From assembly GCF_003627815.1 (NCBI RefSeq), contig NZ_CP032698.1:7378001-7442000 (forward strand): DNA of 64,000 bases. Reading direction: 5' to 3'. This document shows, in pieces, positions 15,788 through 17,526 of the stretch. Source of the DNA: Streptomyces hundungensis. GTDB taxonomy: Bacteria > Actinomycetota > Actinomycetes > Streptomycetales > Streptomycetaceae. How positions within the stretch are numbered: the first letter of the stretch is position 1; each line of letters starts with the position of its first letter. A program made the translations under genes and the position numbers. A model generated the notes under the pieces. The model was not told where the DNA came from, ran no database searches, and worked only from the letters and a program-made list of their open reading frames with translations.

Positions 15788-17029
15788 TCAGCCGCTGGCC
15801 GCCAACTCACCCTGGTGGTCCCAGAGTTGGGCGCTGCGGGACGACACGAGCGCACCGACGCGCCGCAGGAGCTCGGCGGTCGCCAGCGCCGCCGGGTGGC
15901 GGCCGTCGCGCAACCGCAGGGCCACCTCGCCCGCCGCGTCCTCCCGGGCGCCGATCACCGCCTGGTACGGGACGAGGCGGGCCGCCCGGATGCGAGCGCC
16001 GAGGGAGCCCTGTTCGGGGCCGGCGAGCTCCGCGCGCAGACCCTCGGCCAGGGCCCGCTCCACCAATGCGGCCCCGGCCTCGACCTGTGCGTCCGAGACG
16101 GGCGCGACCACCAGTTGGACGGGCGCGAGCCAGGCCGGGAAGGCGCCACCGTGGAGCTCGATGAGGTGGGCGACGGCGCGTTCCATGCTGCCGATGATGC
16201 TGCGGTGGACCATCACCGGACGGTGCCGGGCGCCGTCCGGGCCGATGTAGTGCAGATCGAATTGCTCCGGCTGGTGGAAGTCGATCTGCACGGTGGACAA
16301 GGTGGCCTCGCGGCCCGAGGCGTCGGCGATCTGCACATCGATCTTCGGCCCGTAGAACGCGGCCTCGCCCTCGACCGCCTCGTACGGCACCCCACTGGCA
16401 TCGAGGACCTCGGTCAGCAGGGCGGCGGCCCGCTCCCACATGCCGGCGTCCGCGACGTACTTGTCGCCGGAGCCTGGCAGCGAGAGCCGGTAGCGGGCCG
16501 GGCGGATGCCCAGCGCTTCGTACGCGCGGCCGATCAGATCGAGGGCGGCCCGCGCCTCCTCGGCGGCCTGGTCCAGGGTGCAGAAGACGTGGGCGTCATT
16601 GAGCTGGATCGCCCGCACCCGGGTCAGGCCGCCGAGCACGCCGGACGGTTCGGATCGGTACATGCCGCCCAACTCGGCCATGCGCAGCGGCAGTTCGCGG
16701 TAGCTGTGGGCGCGGGAGCGGTAGATCAGGGCGTGGTGGGGGCACAGGCTGGGGCGCAGCACGACCTGTTCGGCGCCCAGCTCCATCGGCGGGAACATGT
16801 CCTCGCTGTAGTGCGACCAGTGCCCGGAGATCTCGTACAGCTCCCGCTTGCCGAGCACCGGCGAGTACACGTGCCGGTATCCGGCCAGGCGTTCGGTCTC
16901 GCGCACGTACTCCTCCAGGGCGTGCCGCACGGCCGCGCCGTTCGGCAGCCAGTAGGGCAGTCCCGCTCCCATCAGCGGGTCGGTGTCGAACAGGTCGAGT
17001 TCGCGGCCGAGTCGGCGGTGGTCGTGCAC
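15788..17029 (-). CDS. thrS2: Short threonyl-tRNA synthetase (catalytic plus anticodon-binding domains only)
   Basis: A 413-residue class II synthetase, about 245 residues shorter than a housekeeping ThrRS. The TGS and editing domains are absent and the protein opens directly in the catalytic core. Motif 2 lies at M-Y-R-S-E-P-S-G...D-A-H-V-F-C and motif 3 at V-H-R-S-I-I-G-S-M-E-R. The zinc ligands that select threonine are kept as C96, H147 and H275. Residues ~305-413 form the anticodon-binding domain. It should charge tRNA-Thr but cannot proofread Ser-tRNA in cis. The GTG at 17029 follows GAGGAG by 6 nt. It is preceded by a Thr-codon leader ORF and an attenuator. S. coelicolor also has a short second ThrRS. 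A backup or drug-resistant role is inference. Confidence 0.9.
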   Translation of the reverse strand: MHDHRRLGRELDLFDTDPLMGAGLPYWLPNGAAVRHALEEYVRETERLAGYRHVYSPVLGKRELYEISGHWSHYSEDMFPPMELGAEQVVLRPSLCPHHALIYRSRAHSYRELPLRMAELGGMYRSEPSGVLGGLTRVRAIQLNDAHVFCTLDQAAEEARAALDLIGRAYEALGIRPARYRLSLPGSGDKYVADAGMWERAAALLTEVLDASGVPYEAVEGEAAFYGPKIDVQIADASGREATLSTVQIDFHQPEQFDLHYIGPDGARHRPVMVHRSIIGSMERAVAHLIELHGGAFPAWLAPVQLVVAPVSDAQVEAGAALVERALAEGLRAELAGPEQGSLGARIRAARLVPYQAVIGAREDAAGEVALRLRDGRHPAALATAELLRRVGALVSSRSAQLWDHQGELAASG

Positions 17030-17072
17030 GGGGGGCTCCTCGCGGTCTCTGGGGGACGAGTGACCGCACGGA

Positions 17073-17104
17073 AAAGCCCCGGGGCCACTCGGCCCCGGGG
17101 CTTT
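17073..17104 (-). terminator. Attenuator hairpin in the ThrRS leader
   Basis: AAAGCCCCGGGGCC, a 4-nt loop, then its exact complement GGCCCCGGGGCTTT. This gives a 14-bp stem that on the minus strand is followed by TTTTCC. It sits 14 nt after the leader-peptide stop and 43 nt before the ThrRS start, so it would end transcription before thrS2 unless prevented. A GUCCCGG stretch inside the leader ORF (17127-17133) can pair with CCGGGGC in the 5' arm (one G-U pair) as an antiterminator. Confidence 0.8.
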
Positions 17105-17118
17105 GACGTACACAGCTG

Positions 17119-17175
17119 TCAGCGCGCCGGGACACTCTCCGGCGTCGTCGTCCACTGCACAGCCGCACGCTTCAT
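17119..17175 (-). CDS. Thr-rich leader peptide of the ThrRS attenuator
   Basis: An 18-residue ORF, MKRAAVQWTTTPESVPAR, with three consecutive ACG threonine codons (17143-17151) just upstream of a threonyl-tRNA synthetase and its leader terminator. This is the classic layout of ribosome-mediated attenuation: scarce Thr-tRNA stalls the ribosome on the Thr run and favours readthrough. There is no clear ribosome-binding site, but TAGCTT lies 7 nt before the ATG at the spacing of a -10 box, so the transcript may begin at the ATG and be leaderless. That point is inference. The ORF is in a different frame from ThrRS and ends at TGA. Confidence 0.75.
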   Translation of the reverse strand: MKRAAVQWTTTPESVPAR

Positions 17176-17277
17176 GCCGCTGAAGCTAACAGCCCGGCTG
17201 TGGTTGCCGCGCCCCTTTTTTCGCGCCCCCGCTTCGAACCGGAACGGCCCAGGGGGAGTGTGGGGGGGGCGATGGGC

Positions 17278-17526
17278 TCACTCCTTGCCCTCGTAACGCC
17301 GCTCGAACCGGGCGATCCGGCCCTCCGTGTCCACCGTCCGGGCCTTGCCGGTGTAGAAGGGGTGGCTCTCCGCGGAGATCTCCACGTCGATGACCGGATA
17401 GGTGTTCCCATCGTCCCAGTCGATGGTCTCGTCGCTGGTCGCGGTCGAGCGGGTGAGGAAGGCGAATCCGGCCGCCCGGTCACGGAAGACGACCGGCTGG
17501 TACGGGGGTTGCTTGTCGCGCTGCAT
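17278..17526 (-). CDS. rpmE2: Ribosomal protein L31 type B (zinc-free paralogue)
   Basis: An 82-residue L31 with the family core [16 protein letters not shown] and a C-terminal R-F-E-R-R-Y. It contains no cysteine at all, so it lacks the CxxC zinc ribbon of type A L31. In actinomycetes such C-minus copies replace the zinc form when zinc is scarce and are often under Zur. I found no AT-rich Zur-type box near this gene, so that control is not supported here. It starts 19 bp after the DUF5709 gene stop with a GGAG site and is probably co-transcribed with it. Confidence 0.95.

Follow-up and report, generated by a model that had tools for sequence, protein, structure and literature searches.

A probable ribosome-mediated attenuator behind a leaderless leader peptide, upstream of an auxiliary threonyl-tRNA synthetase gene in Streptomyces

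Does the short open reading frame that precedes a second threonyl-tRNA synthetase (ThrRS) gene in Streptomyces hundungensis form, together with the hairpin that follows it, a switch that responds to the charging of tRNA-Thr? The locus lies within the stretch of 64,000 nucleotides that was analyzed (hereafter the window), and its features, listed below, are on the minus strand. The initial annotation had described an 18-codon leader with three consecutive ACG codons and, beginning 14 nt after its stop, a 14-bp GC stem ending in UUUU, and both hold on re-reading of the minus strand. The ThrRS gene (thrS2) does follow as described, at a distance from the U-run of 42 nt rather than 43. The segment GUCCCGG (17133-17127) of the leader can pair with the 5' arm of the terminator as had been noted, but the helix is longer than the 7 nt given, as GUCCCGGCGC forms 9 pairs with GCCCCGGGGC around one C-C mismatch.

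17217..17222, minus strand: WblC/WhiB7-like box GAAAAA, one mismatch to the consensus GAAAWY
17183..17188, minus strand: -10 hexamer TAGCTT, 7 nt upstream of the leader ATG, giving a putative leaderless start
17119..17175, minus strand: leader open reading frame of 18 codons, MKRAAVQWTTTPESVPAR, with ATG at 17175-17173 and the stop TGA at 17121-17119
17143..17151, minus strand: three ACG (Thr) codons, the candidate sensor codons from the sequence, conserved in relatives
17139..17144, minus strand: strand 1, CGCCGG, partner of strand 2
17124..17133, minus strand: strand 2, GUCCCGGCGC, partner of strand 1 (through its CCGGCG part) or of strand 3
17091..17104, minus strand: 5' arm of the terminator, with strand 3 proper, GCCCCGGGGC, at 17092-17101
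17083..17090, minus strand: segment A, GAGUGGCC, the terminator tetraloop and first bases of the 3' arm, complementary to E
17073..17086, minus strand: strand 4, the 3' arm of the terminator, with UUUU at 17075-17072
17057..17065, minus strand: element E, GGUCACUCG, complementary to A and, in relatives, to the Shine-Dalgarno (SD) region as well
17036..17043, minus strand: SD region of thrS2, GCGAGGAG, placed from sequence and folding
15788..17029, minus strand: thrS2, a 413-aa ThrRS with a class II core and an anticodon-binding domain and without the tRNA_SAD editing domain, start codon GTG at 17029

The hairpin of the window thus consists of a stem formed by 17104-17091 and 17086-17073, closed by the loop GAGT. 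Directly upstream, on the same strand, is a gene for ribosomal protein L31 (Pfam PF01197; window 17278-17526).

The product of thrS2 was identified as a threonine--tRNA ligase (NCBIfam TIGR00418, above cut-off) in which Pfam recognized a class II core and an anticodon-binding domain, and not tRNA_SAD, a domain that is present in the other ThrRS of the same genome; the two proteins are 40% identical across their shared part. The housekeeping ThrRS was present in 60 of 61 Streptomyces genomes (the source genome included), the single exception being a genome that is 79% complete. The short ThrRS was matched in 176 of 392 Streptomyces genomes (E <= 1e-110), and when genomes were drawn from the whole class, 62 of 394 had it, spread over 17 of 137 genera. 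Because the housekeeping copy is near-universal and the short copy is found in only part of the genomes, thrS2 encodes an auxiliary ThrRS, a second copy beside the housekeeping enzyme. The short ThrRS scored 385 bits against the reference 1nyq, which we take to be the ThrRS of Staphylococcus aureus, and 312.5 bits against its own housekeeping counterpart; the higher S. aureus score may hint at a Firmicutes-like origin and a loss of the N-terminal domains. The gene thrS2 is presumably SCO3778. That identifier is given as a threonyl tRNA synthetase in PMC10771440, with a sigma-E site only in ethanol-stressed cells, and was counted once in PMC7157823, where it was not found in the main text.

For conservation of the leader, 131 short-ThrRS loci were chosen by protein match and not by leader. 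They came from 45 of 48 places of a first genus draw (the window itself was omitted, as were L048 and L049, which are partial or divergent), from those of the 62 class-draw places not already included, and from 29 genomes hand-picked among the Streptomyces matches listed; as two were cut by a contig edge, 129 had enough upstream sequence. A core of Thr codons, strand 1 and strand 2 was shared by 128 of the 129 loci, and the observed element thus exceeds chance. An in-frame start lay 5-8 nt past a -10-like hexamer in 127 of the 128 cores, TTTP was present in 123 of them (L206 had no start assigned), and ACGACGACG was found in 117 of 122 leaders, a set that leaves out L039, to which no start was assigned. 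In the most distant loci, L223, L225 and L226, whose ThrRS are 65, 55 and 54% identical, both TTTP and the repeat made up of strands 1 and 2 were kept. Of the 60 places with a housekeeping thrS, 30 were examined, and none had the leader motif. L019 is the sole protein-selected locus of the 129 without a leader, and it has kept the hairpin and an E-like element.

An exact scan of GTDB genomes with the leader pattern returned at least 120 loci, and the genera among the matches listed (80 titles) were Streptomyces, Kitasatospora, Amycolatopsis, Nocardia, Kribbella, Nonomuraea, Frankia and Jiangella. ThrRS motifs lay downstream in 108 plus 8 of these loci (L139 having the start motif only), and three had fewer than 50 bases of sequence after the leader. 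L168, in which the leader and half the hairpin stand before an apparent late part of a ThrRS gene, looks like the remnant of a deletion. Pattern-selected loci were included in the hairpin, promoter, E, SD and T-run sets; their selection had fixed strands 1 and 2, and not the promoter, loop, E or SD. The hairpin set comprised 233 loci (123 of the 131 protein-selected and 110 of 120 pattern-selected, exact duplicates removed) and omitted L007, L019, L205 and L213 (no core by a stricter pattern), L221, L222, L104 and L165 (short), and L200, L226, L120 and L135, in which the script detected no strong hairpin. The check proposed in the initial annotation, an alignment of the regions upstream of short thrS genes, bore out its expectation of conservation, as the Thr codons, the hairpin and the leaderless geometry recur in Streptomyces and in other actinomycete genera. 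Strands 1 and 2 are both near-invariant, so that the hairpin covariation that had also been anticipated carries little information there.

The strong conservation of TTTP and VPAR at the amino-acid level would also be expected if the leader were a functional or ribosome-arresting peptide (TTTPxxVPAR) and there were no RNA switch. We consider this very improbable in view of how the peptide is encoded. VPAR was coded GTCCCGGCGCGC (GTC CCG GCG CGC) in 107 of 107 leaders with that ending among the 122 examined. The pattern by which these leaders were gathered itself prescribes part of strand 2, although only L019 of the 129 loci failed a similar pattern. The downstream ThrRS genes use the alternatives freely, the same codons making up 49% (GTC), 58% (CCG), 39% (GCG) and 44% (CGC) of the choices for their amino acids. 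In addition, a frame shift past the Thr run removes the end of the peptide in three leaders (L015, L196 and L204), yet strands 1 and 2 are retained. Because the VPAR codons are fixed and the frame-shifted leaders keep both strands, the leader is, as judged from these alignments, constrained at the level of RNA and not of peptide, which speaks for an attenuator. The leader start M[KQ]RA (codons 2-4) could also pair with GGCGCGC at the end of strand 2 (CAGCGCGCC with GGCGCGCUG), and one compensated change was seen in L068 (VQHA/VPAC). The longest run was 6 or fewer in 22 of 230 leaders, and because of these we leave this pairing as a lead.

The suggestion that the leader ATG sits at +1 of TAGCTT and is leaderless has gained support: the gap in the window is 7 nt, the geometry is conserved, and the 5' end of the S. 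lividans copy was mapped as leaderless by a study of 2021 (PMC8079986). The gap between the -10 and the start was 6 or 7 nt in all of the 230 of 233 loci with an assignable start, with the -10 required to lie within 4-9 nt. A logo of 220 distinct promoters has a GAAAA block at -46 to -42 and TAnnnT at -13 to -8, followed by the start codon, and the WblC consensus is given as GAAAWY, 3 nt, a -35, a spacer of 16-19 nt and TANNNT (PMC7157823). A box within one mismatch of that consensus was found in 154 of the 220 relatives, versus 4 of 220 when each was shuffled once; the box GAAAAA of the window, with one mismatch, lies 3 nt ahead of a weak -35 with a 19-nt spacer (placed by hand). By its sequence, the thrS2 promoter fits the WblC/WhiB7-activated type. 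Consistent with this assignment, thrS2 is the first of the WblC-activated aminoacyl-tRNA synthetase genes in Table 1 of PMC7157823.

The position of the promoter also bears on what the hairpin is. With the L31 gene upstream on the same strand, the hairpin might be taken for the terminator of that gene, but a conserved promoter lies between the two. A T-box finds no counterpart in Rfam, no family having reached the gathering threshold in L001 or L257 and none of four sub-threshold hits being a T-box, and an operator bound by ThrRS is at odds with a short ThrRS that has no tRNA_SAD domain. Taken as one class, these three explanations of the hairpin are hardly credible, even less so than a functional peptide. 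A sub-threshold match of Rfam ar35 over the leader was taken as chance.

The reading of the element as an attenuator is supported by the arrangement of its strands, which is of the trp type. Constrained folding of the window gave helices 1:2, 2:3 and 3:4, which exclude one another and are placed so that a ribosome could mask them. Without a ribosome, the RNA of the window was predicted to fold into 1:2 and 3:4, helices that RNAalifold also recovered from 112 sequences. A ribosome at the stop led to the terminator at -32.2 kcal/mol. When 12-16 nt were masked from the first or second ACG, in RNA extending to the terminator loop, 2:3 formed at -17.6 to -20.9 kcal/mol; with the mask starting at the third ACG, 2:3 formed at 12 or 14 nt and was lost at 16 nt, the widest tried. 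The alternative structure that had been postulated for a ribosome stalled at the Thr codons is thus reproduced by the model. At equilibrium, the terminator state beats the 2:3 state by 9.7 kcal/mol in the window and by 3.0-24.8 kcal/mol (median 13.2) in 172 relatives. As 2:3 is the less stable at equilibrium, the ON state would have to be kinetic, set by the order of synthesis, and other attenuators likewise rely on the order in which their RNA is made.

The stem was at least 10 bp long in 224 of the 233 relatives. The U-run is the weak spot of a reading as transcription termination: the longest T-run at the end of the stem was 2 or less in 192 of the 233 relatives and 4 or more in 15, so that the UUUU of the window is unusual among them. 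Actinobacterial terminators without U-runs exist. For S. lividans, termination at thrL was called unclear, with the U-run as the reason (PMC8079986).

If the leader senses tRNA-Thr, the choice of Thr codons in the leader and in the gene that it precedes becomes of interest. Among 122 leaders the Thr codons were ACG 364 times, ACC 34 times, and ACA and ACT once each. Counting from the conserved start motif onward, Thr made up 2.42% of the codons of 71 short ThrRS genes and only 4 of 701 Thr codons were ACG, compared with 4.02% Thr and 94 ACG of 483 in the same part of 30 housekeeping ThrRS genes. A cruder count over the whole mechanical open reading frames of 88 short genes gave 22 ACG of 944 Thr codons, and none in 75 of the 88 genes. 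In 349 neighboring open reading frames, Thr made up 6.5% of codons and ACG 34% of these, and only 2 of the 265 that were at least 300 codons long were free of ACG. The avoidance of ACG does not appear to be general optimization, because other G-ending codons (CCG 58%, GTG 44%) are kept in the short gene. ACG codons in the leader together with an ACG-poor thrS2 fit the selective tRNA charging theory (PMC1183508).

These codon counts also weigh on another explanation, namely that the leader is a general sensor of translation stress within the WblC regulon, in which any slow or drug-stalled ribosome in the leader would block termination. The WblC box and membership in the regulon speak for it, as does the uORF-mediated attenuation reported for wblC itself (PMC7157823). 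However, such a sensor would not account for a near-invariant Thr run (the 117 of 122 leaders noted above) placed to mask strand 1, and a target gene poor in Thr and ACG points to tRNA-Thr. We therefore hold a general sensor to be unlikely, and prefer an attenuator that reads the charging of tRNA-Thr.

Past the hairpin, relatives have a GGUCACUCGCC-like element (E) that is complementary to the apical segment of the terminator. The energy of A:E pairing was -18.44 with a locus's own downstream sequence versus -16.87 (sd 0.11) with exchanged partners (n=214), and that of E:SD pairing was -14.88 versus -12.91 (sd 0.15; n=212); these sets are those left after stem and loop filters, and the exchange shuffles ignore relatedness. 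On a ThrRS tree of 135 tips (the loci with a full ThrRS), there were 23 same-branch co-changes between E and the tetraloop, the four positions that are unpaired in the hairpin, of which 19 were compensatory and 2.9 were expected. Six decoy regions under the same treatment gave 12-24 co-changes, with 5-14 compensatory and 6.3-8.1 expected; decoys produce co-changes too because E is picked by best complementarity. Full 8/8 pairing of A with E was found in 98 of the 135 loci versus 0-8 of 135 in the six decoys. The analysis of the apical segment covered 190 loci with an 11-nt segment (189 after one skip). In view of this covariation, we regard the A:E pairing as real. For E:SD, the hairpin had a mean z of -1.98 (n=176), and the commonest lower stems were GUGGUC/GACCAC (19) and GCGGUC/GACCGC (16); the same strands also occurred in 8 combinations with G-U pairs and 4 with mismatches. 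The 5-nt core of E:SD was present in 64 of 135 loci versus 24-50 of 135 in decoys, a weak excess. In L028, the loop, E and the SD region are altered in step. RNAalifold, on the 112 sequences, recovered neither of the E helices.

E could therefore be a second, translational layer of control. As we picture it, E would pair with the SD region in the OFF state, and once 2:3 had formed, the freed A would capture E before the SD was made, opening translation too. The covariation at loop positions that are unpaired in the terminator speaks for this arrangement, as do the preference of E for its own SD region, the z score of that hairpin and the concerted change in L028. Against it are the weak excess of the E:SD core over the decoys, the co-changes that decoys yield as well, and the outcome of folding at equilibrium. 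With 2:3 forced, A:E formed in 56 of 172 relatives versus none with 3:4. Release of the SD in the ON state was not seen, the mean unpaired fraction across the 172 relatives being 0.30 with 2:3 forced versus 0.31, with the SD more open in 18 and less open in 25. In the window with 2:3 forced, A:E was absent and the SD paired with strand 4 (unpaired 0.14 versus 0.34). These figures cover 172 of the 212 loci and the window, the other 40 loci lacking the exact strand sequences. Because equilibrium folding shows no opening of the SD, only a kinetic release is left, and we consider this coupling of two layers possible but doubtful. Equally tentative is its fullest form, a six-segment co-transcriptional domino (OFF: 1:2, 3:4 and E:SD; ON: 2:3, A:E and a free SD) in which one stall would set both termination and access to the SD. 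With the WblC promoter, it would make an AND gate of translation stress and tRNA-Thr uncharging before a codon-immunized gene, in several actinomycete genera.

Irrespective of any such second layer, we consider it likely that the element acts as a ribosome-mediated attenuator of the auxiliary, editing-domain-less thrS2, with charged tRNA-Thr as the signal that it reads. The anatomy, its conservation, the A:E covariation, the WblC box and the codon bias can be read in the sequences, and from them we infer the switching, the signal, the termination and any role of E. A WblC/WhiB7-type promoter would give a leaderless transcript that starts at the leader AUG. With ample Thr-tRNA that reads ACG, the ribosome would get to the stop and cover strand 2, and the 3:4 hairpin would form and cause early termination. 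With this Thr-tRNA scarce, the ribosome would stall on the ACG run and cover strand 1, leaving strand 2 free to pair with strand 3 before strand 4 is made, and transcription would read through into thrS2. Having few Thr codons and almost no ACG, thrS2 should stay translatable under the very shortage that induces it, and E, through its pairing with loop A and the SD region, may tie translation to the same switch. The spare ThrRS would thus probably be made only under a shortage of charged tRNA-Thr.

If this is correct, a general regulator of antibiotic stress and an amino-acid-specific RNA sensor would be joined at one spare enzyme. The locus would also be a natural test of the selective charging theory, with an ACG sensor set against a rescue enzyme that avoids ACG and is poor in Thr, and it would suggest a reason why many actinomycetes retain a second, stripped-down ThrRS.

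Among known systems, TrpRS1 of S. coelicolor is an auxiliary, inhibitor-resistant synthetase under ribosome-mediated attenuation, and it resembles thrS2 in being a spare synthetase behind a leader with cognate codons, the amino acid being Trp. The thr and trp leaders of E. coli follow the same segment logic of 1:2, 2:3 and 3:4 with tandem cognate codons. The E. coli thr leader has eight ACC codons (PMC1183508) and controls biosynthesis, whereas the present leader has ACG codons and a leaderless start and would act on a synthetase gene. The attenuators of trp operons, trpS and leuS in Streptomyces (PMC1262725) likewise have a leader peptide, an antiterminator and a terminator, also before synthetase genes, and differ in the amino acids concerned; that paper reports no conserved structure ahead of threonine operons, and its main text does not mention thrS. 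The WblC/WhiB7 study (PMC7157823) lists thrS2 as WblC-activated, with a matching promoter architecture, and attenuation of thrS2 is not described in the parts of it drawn on here. The initial annotation knew of no described case for this gene, a view that has to be given up: 5'-end RNA-seq identified a leaderless thrL of 18 aa, MKRVRPFLETTPGFVPAR, before thrS of S. lividans TK24 (PMC8079986). Since L238 and L245 have exactly this peptide before their short ThrRS, thrL is the same element. As published, thrL has two threonines and one hairpin, and the portions of that paper used here say nothing of alternative strands, of a link to WblC, of occurrence elsewhere or of codon bias. Nor was the switch architecture found in the literature on Streptomyces thrS attenuation, leader peptides and WblC that was consulted, mainly open-access and in part (including PMC4833913 and PMC2965389). 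The element had therefore been named once, as thrL, and thrS2 is a published WblC target; what is added here is the link of WblC to the leader, the breadth of occurrence, the codon immunity and the A:E covariation. When the S. lividans leaders alaL, trpL2 and thrL (PMC8079986) are set beside alaS2, trpS and thrS2 of S. coelicolor (PMC7157823), three WblC-activated synthetases seem to carry leader peptides of their own. We take this as a hint that backup synthetases are built to a shared plan.
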